DNA of 64,000 nucleotides, taken from Spirochaeta thermophila DSM 6578. GTDB lineage: Bacteria; Spirochaetota; Spirochaetia; Winmispirales; Winmispiraceae. The position numbers and the translations under genes were made by a program. Below are positions 1-14,722 of the stretch, piece after piece. Each line of letters starts with the position of its first letter. The stretch's first letter is position 1. Location of the stretch: positions 1,922,001 to 1,986,000 of the forward strand of contig NC_017583.1 in the NCBI RefSeq assembly GCF_000184345.1. The letters run 5' to 3'. The notes under the pieces are model-generated. The model was not told the origin of the DNA and ran no database searches. It saw only the letters and a program-made list of their open reading frames with translations.

Positions 1-1029
<1,029 letters not shown>

Positions 1030-1050
1030 GGTGAGCGGTGAACCACGCGG

Positions 1051-1079
1051 AAGGGAGCACGCGGAGTGCTCCCTTTTTC
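1051..1079 (+). terminator. Rho-independent terminator after ilvC
   Basis: A perfect 10-bp stem (AAGGGAGCAC pairing with GTGCTCCCTT, loop GCGGA) is followed by a T-rich tail. It lies 21 bases after the ilvC stop codon. Confidence 0.85.
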
Positions 1080-1137
1080 TTGTCTTTTTGCTCCAAGAGG
1101 AGTACCATGGAGGGGATTCCACCCATAAGGAGGCGTC

Positions 1138-1566
1138 GTGAAACGAACGATACTGCTCCCTGCCCTCCTCTTCGCCCTCTCGGTGGCACTCCCGGCTGAA
1201 GACCTCACCGGTACTTGGAGATTGCAGACCCAGGTCATCCAGGTCATCCGCAACGGCCAGGTACTCGGCTTCGCCAACCCCGAGCAGGAGCGGTCGATCT
1301 CGCGTATACAGATCTCGGGAGACAGCGCGACCATCGTCTTCGGGGAAATATCCTTCTCCTGCGCCTTCAGGCAGGAGGGGCGGTACCTTCTCTTCCGGCT
1401 CCCCGATCAGGAGGCCAACATCGTCATCACCGTCATCCCCTTGAGGAGCGGGGGCTACAAATTCAGTTACTGCCTCGCCCCTCCGAGGGAGGGCACTCCC
1501 GTCTCGGGCGCAGGGAGCTCCACCCTCATCAACTTCATAGGGAACATGGTGGAAGAAGGCTCCTGA
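1138..1566 (+). CDS. Small exported protein of unknown function
   Basis: A 142-residue protein. It begins with GTG, 6-10 bases after the strong ribosome-binding site AAGGAGG. Residues 1-20 form a typical signal peptide (MKRTILLPALLFALSVALPA) with likely cleavage after the second Ala, giving a mature product of about 120 residues in the periplasm. The mature part starts DLTGTWRL and alternates short polar and hydrophobic stretches, which suggests a small beta-barrel or lipocalin-like fold; this is only inferred from the GTW start and strand pattern. I recognise no family. It sits alone between the ilvC terminator and a convergent operon. Confidence 0.7.
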   Translation: MKRTILLPALLFALSVALPAEDLTGTWRLQTQVIQVIRNGQVLGFANPEQERSISRIQISGDSATIVFGEISFSCAFRQEGRYLLFRLPDQEANIVITVIPLRSGGYKFSYCLAPPREGTPVSGAGSSTLINFIGNMVEEGS

Positions 1567-7588: not shown

Positions 7589-7671
7589 TGGGGAGAGAAG
7601 GATTCGAACCTTCGAAGGCAAACGCCAGCAGATTTACAGTCTGCCCCCTTTGACCGCTCGGGAATCTCCCC
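7589..7671 (-). tRNA. tRNA-Tyr (GTA)
   Basis: The acceptor arm GGGGAGA/TCTCCCC, the anticodon loop CTGTAAA with GTA, a long variable arm and the T loop GGTTCGAATCC are all visible. The length is 83 bases including the discriminator A. Full CCA is not encoded (CCG follows), so it must be added by an enzyme. Confidence 0.95.
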
Positions 7672-7687
7672 ACATCCATGTCTCAGG

Positions 7688-7760
7688 AGCCAACTGTCGG
7701 ATTCGAACCGACGACCCCGAGATTACAAGTCACGTGCTCTACCAGCTGAGCTAAGTTGGC
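7688..7760 (-). tRNA. tRNA-Thr (TGT)
   Basis: The acceptor arm GCCAACT/AGTTGGC, D arm AGCTCAGCTGGTAGAGC, anticodon TGT in CTTGTAA, and T arm GTCGGTTCGAATCCGAC are visible. CCA is not encoded. It lies 16 bases upstream of tRNA-Tyr in the same transcript. Confidence 0.95.
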
Positions 7761-9507: not shown

Positions 9508-10041
9508 TCACCCCTCCACCTCCGAGCGCCCGCACAAGAGCTGGAGATACGTCCTCGCCTCCACCGCATCCAGGAGCCCCCACCGCGCAACCTCACCCCG
9601 CACCCGCCCTACCGCCTCCTCCTCGTCCCCCGCACCCACCGCCTCCACCTCCAGGAACCATCCGAGTCTCCCCACCTCACACAGCTCCACCACCACCCCC
9701 TCCCCGTGGAACCGCCATCCCCGCTTCACCTTCCGTACCAGGAACGAACACCCCAGGTAATCGAGGAGGGACCTCAAGGCCGCCGCATCCTCCACCCCGA
9801 ACTCCACCTCCTCGTTCCGCTCCACCCCGACCTCTATCCGCTTCACCTTGAAGGCGCACGTCCACCGATCTCCCTCCCTTCGCAGGCGTACATGACGAGG
9901 CCGCACCCCCTCCACAGGAGGACCCGTGTAGTACTCATCCTCCTTCTCGAAGGCCTCGCCCTCACCGTAGGCAGCCTCCAGCCGCCCCCTCAGCAGCACG
10001 GGATCCTCCACCCGCGCCTTCATCTCTATTTCTCGCCCCAC
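9508..10041 (-). CDS. CYTH-domain protein (class IV adenylate cyclase/thiamine-triphosphatase-like)
   Basis: A 177-residue protein with the CYTH signature ExExK in REIEMKARV at the N-terminus. Strand-forming motifs of a triphosphate tunnel follow: RHVRLRREGD, CAFKVKR, NEEVEFGVED and WFLEVEAVG. Such proteins hydrolyse or cyclise triphosphates with divalent metal. The layout (EYYTGP followed by RLRREGD) is closest to the CyaB/AC-IV type, but cAMP synthesis cannot be claimed from sequence. It lies 8 bases after the purU stop and 5 bases before the epimerase start, inside the operon. Codon use is strongly G-ending. Confidence 0.82.
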   Translation of the reverse strand: MGREIEMKARVEDPVLLRGRLEAAYGEGEAFEKEDEYYTGPPVEGVRPRHVRLRREGDRWTCAFKVKRIEVGVERNEEVEFGVEDAAALRSLLDYLGCSFLVRKVKRGWRFHGEGVVVELCEVGRLGWFLEVEAVGAGDEEEAVGRVRGEVARWGLLDAVEARTYLQLLCGRSEVEG

Positions 10042-10049
10042 AAGCCCTC

Positions 10050-10913
10050 CTAGTCGAAGATCACCGTCCGGTTCCTGAACACCAGGATCCGGTGGTCGAT
10101 GTGGAGCTTGAGCGCACGCGAGAGCACCAGCTTCTCCACATCCTTCCCCTTCTGCATGAGATCCCGCACCGTATCTCTGTGACTCACCCGCACCACATCC
10201 TGCTCGATGATCGGCCCCTCGTCCAGATCCTCGGTCACGTAGTGGCTCGTCGCCCCGATGATCTTCACCCCCCGCTCATAGGCCTGGTGGTACGGCTTCG
10301 CCCCTGCAAAGGCGGGGAGGAAGCTGTGGTGTATGTTGATGATGCGGTTCCGGAACTCGCCCACGAACCGGGGAGAGAGGATCTGCATGTACCGGGCGAG
10401 CACCACCAGATCCACCCCGTGCTCCTTGAGGAGGGCGATTTCCTTCTCCTCCATCTCCTCCTTGGTCTCCCTGTTCACGGGGAAATAATAGAAGGGAACC
10501 CCGAAGTACTCGGCGATCGGCCGCGTGGTCTCGTGGTTGCTCAGGATCATCACGATATCCGCATCGATCTCGCCCTCCTTGTGCCGCAAGAGCACGTCGT
10601 AGAGGCAGTGATCCTGCTTCGAGACGAAGATCGCCATCCGGGTCCGCTTATCAGAGAACTCGATCCGCCAGTCCATCCGGTACTTGATGGCGATCGGCTC
10701 GAAGGCCTGGGGGATCTTCTCGCGTGGAAGGGCGAAGTCCGAGATGTCCCACTCCACCCTCATGAAAAAGGTATTGGTCTCGGGGTCGTTGTGCTGGTGG
10801 GACTGGAGGATGTTCCCCCCGTAGGTGAAGATGAAGTGCGACACCTCTGCGACGATCCCCTTGGTGTCGGGACAGGAAAAGAGGAGTATTGCGCTCGGTG
10901 GATGTTGTTTCAT
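10050..10913 (-). CDS. purU: Formyltetrahydrofolate deformylase
   Basis: A 287-residue enzyme that hydrolyses 10-formyl-THF to formate and THF, balancing the one-carbon pool. An N-terminal ACT domain (residues 8-85, LLFSCPDTKGIVAEVSHF) precedes the formyltransferase domain (about 90-285). The catalytic triad region is visible in NIHHSFLPAFAGAKPY (His) and GATSHYVTEDLDEGPII (His/Asp). The ATG has no ribosome-binding site and lies 6 bases after a TATAAT box, so the mRNA is predicted to be leaderless. It is the first gene of a four-gene minus-strand operon. Confidence 0.93.
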   Translation of the reverse strand: MKQHPPSAILLFSCPDTKGIVAEVSHFIFTYGGNILQSHQHNDPETNTFFMRVEWDISDFALPREKIPQAFEPIAIKYRMDWRIEFSDKRTRMAIFVSKQDHCLYDVLLRHKEGEIDADIVMILSNHETTRPIAEYFGVPFYYFPVNRETKEEMEEKEIALLKEHGVDLVVLARYMQILSPRFVGEFRNRIINIHHSFLPAFAGAKPYHQAYERGVKIIGATSHYVTEDLDEGPIIEQDVVRVSHRDTVRDLMQKGKDVEKLVLSRALKLHIDHRILVFRNRTVIFD

Positions 10914-10919
10914 GGCCTG

Positions 10920-10948
10920 ATTATAGAAGGCGGAAAGGCACGAAGCAA
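10920..10948 (-). promoter_or_regulatory. purU promoter, predicted leaderless
   Basis: TTGCTT and TATAAT are 17 bases apart on the minus strand. The -10 ends 6 bases before the ATG, so +1 falls on the start codon. Confidence 0.7.
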
Positions 10949-10963
10949 GCCCCACCTTCTCTC

Positions 10964-10992
10964 TGGACACCATCCCCTCCATCCCCTAGTAT
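10964..10992 (+). promoter_or_regulatory. Promoter of carbonic-anhydrase-like/crcB operon, predicted leaderless
   Basis: TGGACA and TAGTAT are 17 bases apart. The -10 ends 6 bases before the ATG at 10999. There is no purine-rich Shine-Dalgarno sequence. It is divergent from the purU promoter with only 15 bases between the two -35 boxes. Confidence 0.6.
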
Positions 10993-10998
10993 GGGCCC

Positions 10999-11376
10999 AT
11001 GAGCCAGTGGATATGTCTTCTCACCTGCATGGACGGCAGGATCCAGCGCCCTGTCCTGGAGTTTCTTCTCCAGAGGCACCCCGGCGCTTTCGTCGACACC
11101 ATCACCGAACCCGGGATGGACGGCCTTCTCGCCACCCATCGGCTCGAAGAGATACCCGGACTCCTCCGGAAGCTGGAGATCTCGCTCGAGACCCACGGTG
11201 CCCGGACCATCTACGTGGCGGGCCACACCGACTGCGCCGGCAACCCGGTGGACGAGGCTGCCCACCTCGCCCACTTTCGTAGGGGCATCCACCTCCTCAC
11301 GGAGCACTTCCCCGGCATCCCCGTCAGCGGCCTATGGGTGGGACCCACCTGGGAGGTCGCCTCCGTGGAGGCATAG
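10999..11376 (+). CDS. Small beta-carbonic-anhydrase-like protein
   Basis: A 125-residue protein with the two zinc-site motifs of beta-carbonic anhydrases: Cys-x-Asp-x-Arg in LLTCMDGRIQ near the start and His-x-x-Cys in AGHTDCAGNP around residue 75. It is much shorter than normal beta-class enzymes (about 200 residues), and the segment between the two motifs is compact. It may be a minimal hydratase or a related metal protein. It is the first gene of an operon with crcB (next start 1 base after its stop) and DUF190. Confidence 0.65.
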   Translation: MSQWICLLTCMDGRIQRPVLEFLLQRHPGAFVDTITEPGMDGLLATHRLEEIPGLLRKLEISLETHGARTIYVAGHTDCAGNPVDEAAHLAHFRRGIHLLTEHFPGIPVSGLWVGPTWEVASVEA

Positions 11377-11377
11377 G

Positions 11378-11779
11378 GTGCATCTTGCCCTCATCATCGC
11401 GGTCGCAATAGGCGGGGCAGGGGGCGCGGTCTCCCGCTTCCTCCTCTCCTCCCTCATCTCCTCTCAGGGCGGCGGCACCTTCCCCTGGGGCACCGTAGTC
11501 GTGAACCTCACGGGAAGCTTCCTCCTCGCCTTCGTGATGGGCCTTTCCGAGCGGCTCTCGCTCTCTCCCGAGACCCGCTCTCTCATCACCGTGGGGTTCC
11601 TGGGCGCCTTCACCACCTTCTCCACACTCACCTACGAGACCCTCACCCTCCTGCGCGAGGGAGACTACCTCCCCGCCCTTCTCTACAGCGGTGGGCAGCT
11701 CGTGTGCGGCCTCGTCGCCGCAGCGGCAGGCTTCCTCACCGCCCGCATCGTGTGGTACGCTCTCTCCGGACGGATATGA
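11378..11779 (+). CDS. crcB: Fluoride ion exporter CrcB/Fluc
   Basis: A 133-residue membrane protein with four predicted helices and the Fluc motifs: GGAVSRFLL, GTVVVNLTGSFLLAF (conserved Asn) and GFLGAFTTFSTLTYE (the TFSTF-like track that lines the fluoride pore). It works as a dual-topology dimer that lets fluoride leave the cytoplasm. The start is GTG with GGAGG seven bases upstream. Longer open frames upstream are out of the conserved region. No fluoride riboswitch is recognisable before the operon. Confidence 0.9.
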   Translation: MHLALIIAVAIGGAGGAVSRFLLSSLISSQGGGTFPWGTVVVNLTGSFLLAFVMGLSERLSLSPETRSLITVGFLGAFTTFSTLTYETLTLLREGDYLPALLYSGGQLVCGLVAAAAGFLTARIVWYALSGRI

Positions 11780-11789
11780 GGAGGTACCG

Positions 11790-12116
11790 ATGGTGGCCAT
11801 ACGGCTCCGCATCTACACATCCGAAGACGAGAAGATAGGCCACATCCCCCTCTACGAGGCCGTGGCCGAACAGGCCCGCACCCTGGGGCTTGCAGGCCTC
11901 ACCGTATTCCGGGGGATATTCGGCTTCGGAAGGGAGAGACACATCCACACCGTGAAGGTCCTCTCCCTCTCGGAGAACCTGCCGGTGGTCCTCGAGCTCA
12001 TCGACACCAAGGAACGCATCGACGCGCTCCTCCCTTTCCTCGACACACATCTCAGAAACGGGATCTACACCCTGGAGGAGGTGGAGCTCTACATACCACA
12101 CTCTGGGAAGGGCTGA
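11790..12116 (+). CDS. DUF190 family protein
   Basis: A 108-residue soluble protein starting MVAIRLRIYTSEDEK, typical of DUF190. The family folds like PII/CutA1-type ferredoxin-like trimers. ARTLGLAGLTVFRGIFGFG and LPVVLELIDTKERIDALL are the conserved blocks. DUF190 genes often lie next to or are fused with crcB, as here (8 bases after the crcB stop, with a GAGGAGG site), so a role in fluoride export or its control is likely, although no biochemical function is established to my knowledge. Confidence 0.85.
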   Translation: MVAIRLRIYTSEDEKIGHIPLYEAVAEQARTLGLAGLTVFRGIFGFGRERHIHTVKVLSLSENLPVVLELIDTKERIDALLPFLDTHLRNGIYTLEEVELYIPHSGKG

Positions 12117-12196
12117 AACACTCTTCCGGATCCCCCGGCCTCGGCACACCATTCCGGCATCCTTGGAGGCGTTTCCATCACACGGTGGGCACGAAA

Positions 12197-12222
12197 GAGG
12201 GGAGGCCCCAGGGCCTCCCCTC
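12197..12222 (-). terminator. Terminator of the repeat/OmpA gene
   Basis: A perfect 11-bp G+C-rich stem (GAGGGGAGGCC with GGCCTCCCCTC, loop CCCTGG or shorter). On the minus strand it is followed by TTTC, 20 bases after the stop of the next gene. Confidence 0.65.
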
Positions 12223-12241
12223 GCATACGCGCATCATCCGA

Positions 12242-14722
12242 TCACTCGCCGGACTTCTCCTTCAGGAGGAACTCCACCCTCCGGTTCACCCACCGCTTCT
12301 TGAGATCGCTGAAAGGCACGATGGGCCGTGAGCCTCCGTAGCCCACGATGGAGAGCCGCGAGGGATCCACCCCCCTGGAGATGAGGGCCTTTCGCACTGC
12401 CTCGGCCCTCGCACGGGAGAGCGGGACGAGGACTTCCTGATGCTCCACCTTCGCCCGCTCCGGATCGAACCAGAGGAGGGAGACCGCGTGTCCCTCGAGC
12501 TGCACGGTATACTGCGGGAACTTCTTGAGCATCGCAGCCACCTCGTCGAGCGTACGCAGGTTCTCCTCACGGATCTCCGACGGCACCTTGTCGGTGTAGT
12601 CGGCGGTGAAGGGCGCGAAGTGGATGTCGGGCACGCTGATGTAGGCCCCGCCGTCCTTGATCACGACGTACACGTCGGTCACCACCAGGGCCGAGGCCTT
12701 CGCCACGTTGCCGCCGAGATCCGTGACCGTGAAGGCCACGGGATAGTCGTGGGCCTGCTCGGCAAGATCACCCGATTCGAAGAAACCGTCCCATACGATC
12801 CGGGCCGGCGGCTCCCCGTCCTCCGAAAATGTCTGCTTCCGATCCTTGTTGGCAATCACCAGCTCCCACGACTCGATACCCGACTCGTCCCTCACCTCGG
12901 GGATGAAGGCGACCACCTCGTCCCTGCCGTCGCCGTCGGGCGAGAAGGGGACGGGCTCCGTCTTCACGGACACCTCAGGAGGCACGGTATCCACCCACAC
13001 CGGAAGGGGCGCACTCTCGAGCACGGTGTCCTTCTCACCGTATGTCGCCGAGGCCACGAGCTCGTATCGCCCGTCGGGCACCTCCATGGTGAGGAGCCGC
13101 TCCGTGGAGATGGTGAAGGGAATGACGATGCCTTCCACTCCGAGCATCTGCTGATCGACCACATAGCGCTCGCCCTGAGGCGTGGTGATGGTGATGACCA
13201 GCCGGTTCACGGGAAGCCCTTCATCTCCGGTCACCGTGATCTCGAGCGAATCCCTCACCCCGTCCCCGTTGGGCGAGAACCCGGGGTGGTCCGCCGCGAG
13301 GTCTATCCGAGGCAGGGCATAGCTCACCGCGATCTCGTTTATCTCTGCCATCCCCAGGTTGCCGGCCTCATCCCGCGCATAGACCCGATAGGTATAGAGG
13401 CCTTCCGGGACCTTCTTGCCGGTCTCATCCGTACCGTCCCACACGAAATCACCCAGACCGCCTTCCCAGGTGTGCGTGAGCACGAGCTGCCCCTGAGGCG
13501 AACGGACCTCCGAGGTCCAGACCACATCCTTGTCGGGCGAGGTCTGCTCCACGACGAACACATCCTGGAACCCGTCGTCGTTGGGAGAGAGCTTCCTGGG
13601 CCCGTACTGGAGGAGCGTCACCGGAGGCTGGGTGTCGATCACCACAGGCACCTCGGTCACCGCGACTGTCCCCGAGAGGTACTCGGTCTCGAGACGCAGG
13701 GTATACTCGCCGTCGGGCAACACGGTATCGTCGAACCGGCCGTTGAACACGTAGGTGGTGGGAAGCTCGAACGAACTCGCCGAAGCGAGCACCCTGCCAT
13801 CCGCGTCCCTCACCTCACCACGCACCCCCACCACCTGGCCCGGCGACCTGTCCACCAGGGTGATCACACAGAAATCCTGTACATCGTCCGCATTGGGAGA
13901 GATGTGATCGGGCTCGGCCTTCACCACCACCTGCTTGGGCGCGGCATCGACCACCACGGGCCCCGCCTTCGTGGAGAAAGCGTTTCCCGCCCTGTCGGTG
14001 GAGGAGAGCACGTAGTAGTACTCCCCGTCGGAGATGATCGTGCCGTCCGAGAGCTTCCCGTCCCAGAAGACGGAAGCGGGCGCACCGTTCTCGAGTACGT
14101 AACGGAACACCTCGGTACCATCCTCCCTCTGGACACTCATCACCCACTGCTCCTCGGTGGTACCCGACTGCTCCACCACGATGGTGTCCTTCCTCCCATC
14201 TCCGTTCGGAGAAAAGATGGGTTCGGGGATCCGCACCTGTGCGGAGGGAGGAGTATTGTCCACCACGACGGAAATGGAGGAGGTGGAGGTCTGTCCCAAA
14301 TGGTCGGTCACGGTCAGCGTGCACGTGTACGAGCCCTCCGGCACGGCACGCCCCTCGGTATCGGTCCCGTTCCACTCGACAGAGGAGGGGATCTCCACCG
14401 AAGGCCGTTTCTTGAGCCCCAACGAGATGAGGAGATTGCTGAAGAAACCGGGTTTCGGCAGGGGCTCGCTCTGTGCGGTGAAGACCACCTTGCCCGCCTC
14501 GTCCTGGATCACGATCCTGTAATCCTGGATCGAGGTATTCGCCGTCACGGAGAGGGGAATGACGATCGCGTCCTGGACCCCGGGAGAAGCCCCGGGGGAG
14601 ATATACACCGCCTCCTCCTCTCCGAGCGAGACGATCGGAGGTCCTTTCTCCTTCTTACCCCCTGCGAACAGCAGTGCGGGGAGAAGGACGAGCATTGCGA
14701 CAACGGTCCACCATCGTTTCAT
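12242..14722 (-). CDS. Large exported protein with FlgD-Ig-like repeats and C-terminal OmpA domain
   Basis: An 826-residue protein with a signal peptide (residues 1-20, VVAMLVLLPALLFAGG). The body carries about six repeats of 100-110 residues, most containing a SPNGDG-like loop with a trailing Asp (for example FSPNGDGRKD, ISPNADDVQD, LSPNDDGFQD, FSPNGDGVRD, FSPDGDGRDE). Each is followed by Ig-like strands with the motif VWDGTDETG or similar, as in FlgD-Ig/CHU_C-like folds; the Asp loops may bind calcium. Residues about 714-826 form an OmpA/MotB-type peptidoglycan-binding domain (LEGHAVSLLW, LSRARAEAVRKAL, VGYGGSRPI, NRRVEFLL). It probably links peptidoglycan to the outer envelope in the periplasm. 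It has its own promoter and terminator. Confidence 0.85.
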   Translation of the reverse strand: MKRWWTVVAMLVLLPALLFAGGKKEKGPPIVSLGEEEAVYISPGASPGVQDAIVIPLSVTANTSIQDYRIVIQDEAGKVVFTAQSEPLPKPGFFSNLLISLGLKKRPSVEIPSSVEWNGTDTEGRAVPEGSYTCTLTVTDHLGQTSTSSISVVVDNTPPSAQVRIPEPIFSPNGDGRKDTIVVEQSGTTEEQWVMSVQREDGTEVFRYVLENGAPASVFWDGKLSDGTIISDGEYYYVLSSTDRAGNAFSTKAGPVVVDAAPKQVVVKAEPDHISPNADDVQDFCVITLVDRSPGQVVGVRGEVRDADGRVLASASSFELPTTYVFNGRFDDTVLPDGEYTLRLETEYLSGTVAVTEVPVVIDTQPPVTLLQYGPRKLSPNDDGFQDVFVVEQTSPDKDVVWTSEVRSPQGQLVLTHTWEGGLGDFVWDGTDETGKKVPEGLYTYRVYARDEAGNLGMAEINEIAVSYALPRIDLAADHPGFSPNGDGVRDSLEITVTGDEGLPVNRLVITITTPQGERYVVDQQMLGVEGIVIPFTISTERLLTMEVPDGRYELVASATYGEKDTVLESAPLPVWVDTVPPEVSVKTEPVPFSPDGDGRDEVVAFIPEVRDESGIESWELVIANKDRKQTFSEDGEPPARIVWDGFFESGDLAEQAHDYPVAFTVTDLGGNVAKASALVVTDVYVVIKDGGAYISVPDIHFAPFTADYTDKVPSEIREENLRTLDEVAAMLKKFPQYTVQLEGHAVSLLWFDPERAKVEHQEVLVPLSRARAEAVRKALISRGVDPSRLSIVGYGGSRPIVPFSDLKKRWVNRRVEFLLKEKSGE

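Follow-up and report, generated by a model that had tools for sequence, protein, structure and literature searches.

In beta-carbonic anhydrases, the residues of the CxDxR and HxxC motifs serve as the zinc ligands and the catalytic pair, and solved chains can be as short as 166 and 170 residues (3las and 1g5c). Pfam also holds a compact family, PF20393 (Pro_CA_2), under the description "Putative carbonic anhydrase"; among the papers listed by the literature searches, none was on this family or its activity. As for fluoride, passages of a review describe fluoride stress as closely tied to pH homeostasis and name Na+/H+ antiporters, pyrophosphatase, enolase, and others as partners (PMC11139923). 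None of the papers listed by these searches dealt with a link between carbonic anhydrase and fluoride export.

We analyzed a locus that carries all three genes in a 64,000-nucleotide stretch (the window) of the genome of Spirochaeta thermophila DSM 6578, which consists of one contig of 2.56 Mb. We consider it likely that the first gene of the locus encodes a compact carbonic-anhydrase enzyme, was gained in the genus, and heads a crcB-DUF190 unit as a local insertion. The features of the locus are as follows:

10050..10982, minus strand: purU-type formyltetrahydrofolate-deformylase-like gene (PF00551, 161.3 bits; sub-threshold ACT match)
10964..10992, plus strand: promoter-like site, TGGACA, 17 nt, TAGTAT (9 of 12 consensus matches)
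10999..11376, plus strand: carbonic-anhydrase-like gene, PF20393 (Pro_CA_2), 125 aa (121.8 bits)
11367..11371, plus strand: GGAGG, the likely crcB ribosome-binding site, within the 3' end of the first gene and 6 nt before the GTG at 11378
11378..11779, plus strand: crcB, Fluc-type fluoride channel, 133 aa (TIGR00494, 90.7 bits, cut-off 80.45; PF02537, 99 bits)
11790..12116, plus strand: DUF190 protein, P-II-like, 108 aa (PF02641, 117.1 bits)
12242-14722, minus strand: OmpA-family gene, convergent with DUF190; its 826-aa product carries CHU_C and Ig-like domains and an OmpA domain at the C-terminus

The original prediction had described a 125-residue protein with CxDxR and HxxC motifs, followed by crcB at a one-base gap and then by DUF190. 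This order and its coordinates hold, with the GTG start of crcB at 11378 lying 1 base after the TAG stop of the first ORF, and both zinc-type motifs are present in the protein encoded at 10999-11376, as C10-M-D12-G-R14 (CMDGR) and H76-T-D-C79 (HTDC). The TIGR00494 score of the channel exceeds the cut-off and assigns it to the CrcB/Fluc family. The DUF190 protein, for which 2dcl and 1o51 are solved relatives, reaches 18.8 bits against the P-II profile of Pfam, under the cut-off of 25. The start of the purU-like gene is more likely at 10913, since its homologue in the sister genus (locus L093) starts at about the equivalent place. Between the DUF190 gene and the OmpA-family gene lies a perfect 12-bp inverted repeat with a 2-base loop and without a T run (12197-12222), which is perhaps a shared terminator. 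Two adjacent tRNA genes are also located in the window (7589-7760, minus strand).

The 125-residue protein matches PF20393 far above the Pfam cut-off (121.8 bits, 2.5e-35, cut-off 30) and spans profile positions 5-124 of 125, which makes it a member of this family. Its match to PF00484, the profile of the classical beta-carbonic anhydrases, is weak (17.3 bits, below the cut-off of 25.7) and places it outside that family. Comparison of the ORF with that of the second species of the genus (G006) revealed 11, 2, and 27 differences at the three codon positions, respectively, with 26 synonymous and 11 non-synonymous changes among 126 codons; the third-position excess and the family match rule out a spurious ORF at 10999-11376. 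The protein had been set against known beta-carbonic anhydrases said to be almost twice as long. This contrast is too strong, as 125 residues is normal for PF20393 and the solved beta chains include those of 166 and 170 residues. The length is the family's own, because the PF20393 profile itself has 125 positions, and a truncated or degraded beta-carbonic anhydrase is thereby ruled out; the ORFs of the relatives are mostly 121 to 142 aa long among the best 80 of 258. The compact form is a whole and widespread family that is known in Pfam.

Named genomes were scanned, which yielded 309 candidate stretches, 258 of them confirmed as relatives, and the best 80 were retained. These best 80 of 258 come from many bacterial phyla and from archaea, for example Nitrosopumilus. 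In an alignment of 84 sequences, which includes the window protein and its near twin from G006 and in which the row of L003 is cut at its start, C10, D12, R14, and Q16 are invariant in all 83 rows with a letter there, and H76, D78, and C79 are invariant in 84 of 84 rows. The search for relatives used the patterns GH[TCY]DCAGN and the ITEP block. Neither pattern covers the CMDGR block, so the choice of sequences cannot explain its invariance; the invariance of the HxDC block is only partly independent of that choice. All of the residues kept almost without exception in the alignment (C, D, R, Q; D, T, E, P, G; H, D, C, A, G, N, P; and W) are found in the window protein, at positions 10, 12, 14, 16, 33, 36-39, 76, 78-83, and 113. 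The window protein departs from the family at W4, where 79 of 83 rows have F, at C6, where 76 of 83 rows have T, and at A68, where 80 of 84 rows have S.

The AlphaFold model of the protein (pLDDT 95.8, pTM 0.89) predicts a beta-carbonic-anhydrase fold over the whole chain. All 27 Foldseek matches at E <= 0.001 are beta-carbonic anhydrases; other folds follow just below, with a pentameric riboflavin synthase at E 1.5e-3 and a mechanosensitive channel at E 1.6e-3, and both of these are missing from the 50 entries that VIA lists. These 50 entries (Z 11.9-13.7) are, mostly by title, beta-carbonic anhydrases or the related CS2 hydrolase, and they include 1ylk and 7sev, which are titled by gene name only and which we take to be carbonic anhydrases. 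The best VIA-align entry is 6y04_A (Z 13.7, rmsd 3.0, 118 residues), with 3las and 1g5c at Z 13.1 over 110-112 residues. The pairwise alignment with 1g5c places CMDGR on CMDSR and GHTDC on GHTDC at a weak E of 0.023, and the match to solved beta-carbonic anhydrases is still weak with a profile (E 0.0087). The active-site surroundings may differ from those of the solved enzymes, because in many of these about 23-35 residues, by the entries' own numbering, precede the matched part.

The family match, the invariant putative zinc-site residues, and the predicted fold bear out the original view of the protein as carbonic-anhydrase-like. The 125-residue protein, a member of PF20393, would thus be a compact zinc protein of the beta-carbonic-anhydrase fold. 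Its C10, H76, and C79 would bind a zinc ion, next to which the D12-R14 pair would be placed, and this site would most likely catalyze the interconversion of CO2 and bicarbonate. Zinc binding, the zinc geometry, and catalysis are proposed from the predicted fold and the conserved residues, by analogy with the described enzymes. The same fold could also serve a zinc hydrolase that acts on a different substrate, for instance COS or CS2, given that a CS2 hydrolase matches it about as well as many carbonic anhydrases do (3ten, Z 12.4; 3teo, Z 12.3) and that the TEPG and HxDCAGNP blocks are unlike the sequences of 1g5c and 3las in their matched parts. We regard such a substrate as unlikely, as carbonic anhydrases make up the great majority of the listed structural matches and the gene of one relative (L038, 5983-7828) sits 13 nt upstream of a gene for PEP carboxylase (PF14010), a bicarbonate user. 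Testing one PF20393 member would show the function of the family.

The carbonic-anhydrase-like gene had further been predicted to start an operon. The site TGGACA-17-TAGTAT is the only promoter-like site in 10000-12400 (shuffle mean 0.2, sd 0.4), with its -10 hexamer stopping 6 nt short of the start codon (ATG, 10999), which suggests that a transcript from 10999 may be leaderless. The hexamers, which match by consensus only, and the spacer are identical in G006, where the same gene order and the same one-base gap are also found. Comparison of the two species revealed 2 differences in the 85 bases from the likely purU-like start to the ATG (10914-10998) and agreement at 203 of 211 bases in 10850-11060, with 92% agreement over the whole locus. 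Co-transcription of the carbonic-anhydrase-like gene, crcB, and DUF190 is plausible because of the single upstream promoter-like site, the tight spacing, and the order and one-base gap kept in the second species, and the sequence suggests that a transcript from the promoter-like site runs on into crcB. The carbonic-anhydrase-like gene would now head a three-gene transcription unit from a promoter right upstream. The spacing, the promoter-like site, and the conserved order favor the predicted operon, in which co-transcription itself is read from the sequence.

The gene neighborhood was then compared with those of other genomes: among the loci compared, only those of two species in this genus have the three genes in this order. 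The neighborhood is not unique to this strain, since the second species has the order, and the zinc-site residues of the protein are intact. The family of the window organism was represented by three genomes, those of the two species of the genus and that of the sister genus G138, from which PF20393 is absent. The crcB locus of the sister genus (L093) contains a purU-like gene (PF00551), crcB (PF02537), DUF190 (PF02641), and an OmpA-family gene (PF00691), as in the window, and thus represents the same locus frame without the carbonic-anhydrase-like gene. An ankyrin-repeat ORF (888-1292, minus strand; Ank_2, 129.1 bits) lies in L093 between the purU-like gene and crcB, the slot that the carbonic-anhydrase-like gene occupies in the window. 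This slot is perhaps a variable insertion site.

Single-sequence and profile searches found crcB or DUF190 near PF20393 relatives at none of the 80 named-genome loci (best 80 of 258), 70 of which are flanked by at least 1 kb on either side, the other 10 having less than 1 kb on one side or both. The single-sequence crcB search, applied as a control to Pfam-defined spirochaete loci, recovered crcB in 30 of 30; the crcB profile was trained on 30 spirochaete sequences including that of the window. Among the spirochaetes, by which we mean the phylum from which the searched genomes were drawn, crcB was matched in 76 of 198 genomes, and 30 places of at most about 3.3 kb were taken as loci. The carbonic-anhydrase-like gene was found at none of the 29 other spirochaete crcB loci, a set that does not include G006. 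At 18 of these 29, crcB is accompanied by DUF190 within the locus of roughly 3 kb, and a search of the class matched DUF190 in 19 of 118 genomes. The role of DUF190 with the channel seems more general than the carbonic-anhydrase link.

No single theme emerged for a conserved partner of PF20393 across the 80 loci (best 80 of 258). By a rough longest-ORF call, 42 of them lack a same-strand neighbor within 60 nt, whereas 28 have one upstream and 18 have one downstream. In loci mostly from Nitrosopumilus, a methyladenine-glycosylase-like gene is located just upstream of PF20393 in 8, and the gene of a 430-aa membrane-like protein is located downstream in 8 (as the next gene in 7 and the fourth in 1). 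One protein of each type was scanned against Pfam, and the copy of the 430-aa protein at 711-2003 of L071 gave no match at E <= 0.001. These Nitrosopumilus-type neighbors are lineage-bound only. In another relative (L046, 4007-7615), the PF20393 gene lies between two Na+/H+ exchanger genes (PF00999). The neighborhoods of L038 and L046, whose proteins fall in the same part of the tree as the window protein, are in keeping with a carbonic anhydrase; as two loci picked out of 80, they prove nothing.

PF20393 scored over the cut-off in 4 of 247 spirochaete genomes; in a fifth (G115) it reached 22.1 bits, below the cut-off, at a place that passes PF00484 with 42.9 bits. The other two spirochaete lineages with PF20393 (L002 and L003, the latter beginning at a contig end) have different neighbors. 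In the tree, the window protein is separated from both and falls in a mixed-phylum set of 9 rows (support 99/94) with companions from a methanogen, Omnitrophota, a Syntrophomonadaceae bacterium, Thermosulfurimonas, and Bacteroidota/Chlorobiota. This placement, in a tree with few columns, a long window branch (1.74), and a flagged letter make-up of the window protein, fits lateral gain. The carbonic-anhydrase-like gene was probably acquired laterally in the genus, where we infer gain rather than loss from only three genomes compared in the family, and would have come to lie between the purU-like gene and the crcB-DUF190 pair native to the locus. A search for the beta class found no PF00484 carbonic anhydrase in the window's genome, G006, or G138. 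Replacement of a lost beta-carbonic anhydrase is not supported, as G138 has neither PF00484 nor PF20393, and plasmid carriage was rejected with no protein match in 72,556 plasmid records.

The original prediction also proposed a functional link to fluoride exit. The three genes would then form a working fluoride module in which HF dissociates after entry and makes the cell more acid, the carbonic anhydrase speeds bicarbonate buffering, CrcB releases fluoride, and DUF190 modulates the channel. The one-base gap and the shared promoter-like site are consistent with such a module, as are the close agreement upstream of the ATG relative to the whole locus and the position of L046 between two exchanger genes. 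The module is nevertheless improbable in our judgment, because neither crcB nor DUF190 lies near any of the 80 relatives and the gene is found at none of the 29 other spirochaete crcB loci. Moreover, neither the fluoride review (PMC11139923) nor a paper on the fluoride operon of Enterobacter cloacae (PMC5533749) uses the word "carbonic" in its main text. No fluoride riboswitch was detected in the window at the Rfam gathering threshold, in 10850-12240 up to E 10, or in 20 of the 29 other spirochaete crcB loci, and the three-gene locus was not found to belong to a fluoride-riboswitch regulon. This absence is weak evidence, since only about 15% of Flucs are under riboswitches according to a passage of the review (PMC11139923).

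With no such association at the 80 relatives or the 29 crcB loci, and with a sister-genus locus that lacks the gene, the proposed link to fluoride exit is not upheld. The position of the carbonic-anhydrase-like gene next to crcB is best explained by a local insertion, which would share expression with its neighbors, and not by a conserved fluoride mechanism, because the order is seen only in two species of one genus. There is a slim chance that, in this genus, the fluoride channel is co-regulated with a carbonic-anhydrase-like enzyme and a P-II-like regulator in one unit that ties bicarbonate/proton supply to fluoride exit, a tie that was not met in the literature searched. The fluoride link, if true, would be a lineage-specific add-on. 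It is very improbable that the 125-residue protein holds zinc without being catalytic and serves as a partner, for instance as a sensor that works together with the P-II-like DUF190 protein: the DUF190 protein has weak, sub-threshold P-II similarity and a passage of a genome paper proposes DUF190 proteins, distant kin of GlnK, as possible transport modulators (PMC3543383), but crcB-DUF190 occurs without the carbonic-anhydrase-like gene, PF20393 occurs without DUF190 nearby, and the putative zinc site with its D-R pair is invariant.

The preferred reading, a compact carbonic-anhydrase enzyme inserted ahead of crcB-DUF190, can be set against three known systems. Compared with the CrcB/Fluc-DUF190 pair, the locus shares a DUF190-crcB link that is common to 18 of the 29 other spirochaete loci, whereas those loci, unlike the window, are without the carbonic-anhydrase-like gene. 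Compared with the beta-carbonic anhydrases 1g5c and 3las, the window protein is alike in its predicted fold, and its CxDxR and HxxC residues align with those of 1g5c; it differs in falling below the PF00484 cut-off and in being shorter, with the matched parts of those chains starting at residues 25-30, and its TEPG and AGNP blocks are specific to PF20393 and differ from both. Compared with the other members of PF20393, the window protein stands apart in its crcB-DUF190 neighborhood, its long tree branch, and its residues W4, C6, and A68, and it is alike in length and in the CMDGR, TEPG, HxDCAGNP, and GLW blocks.
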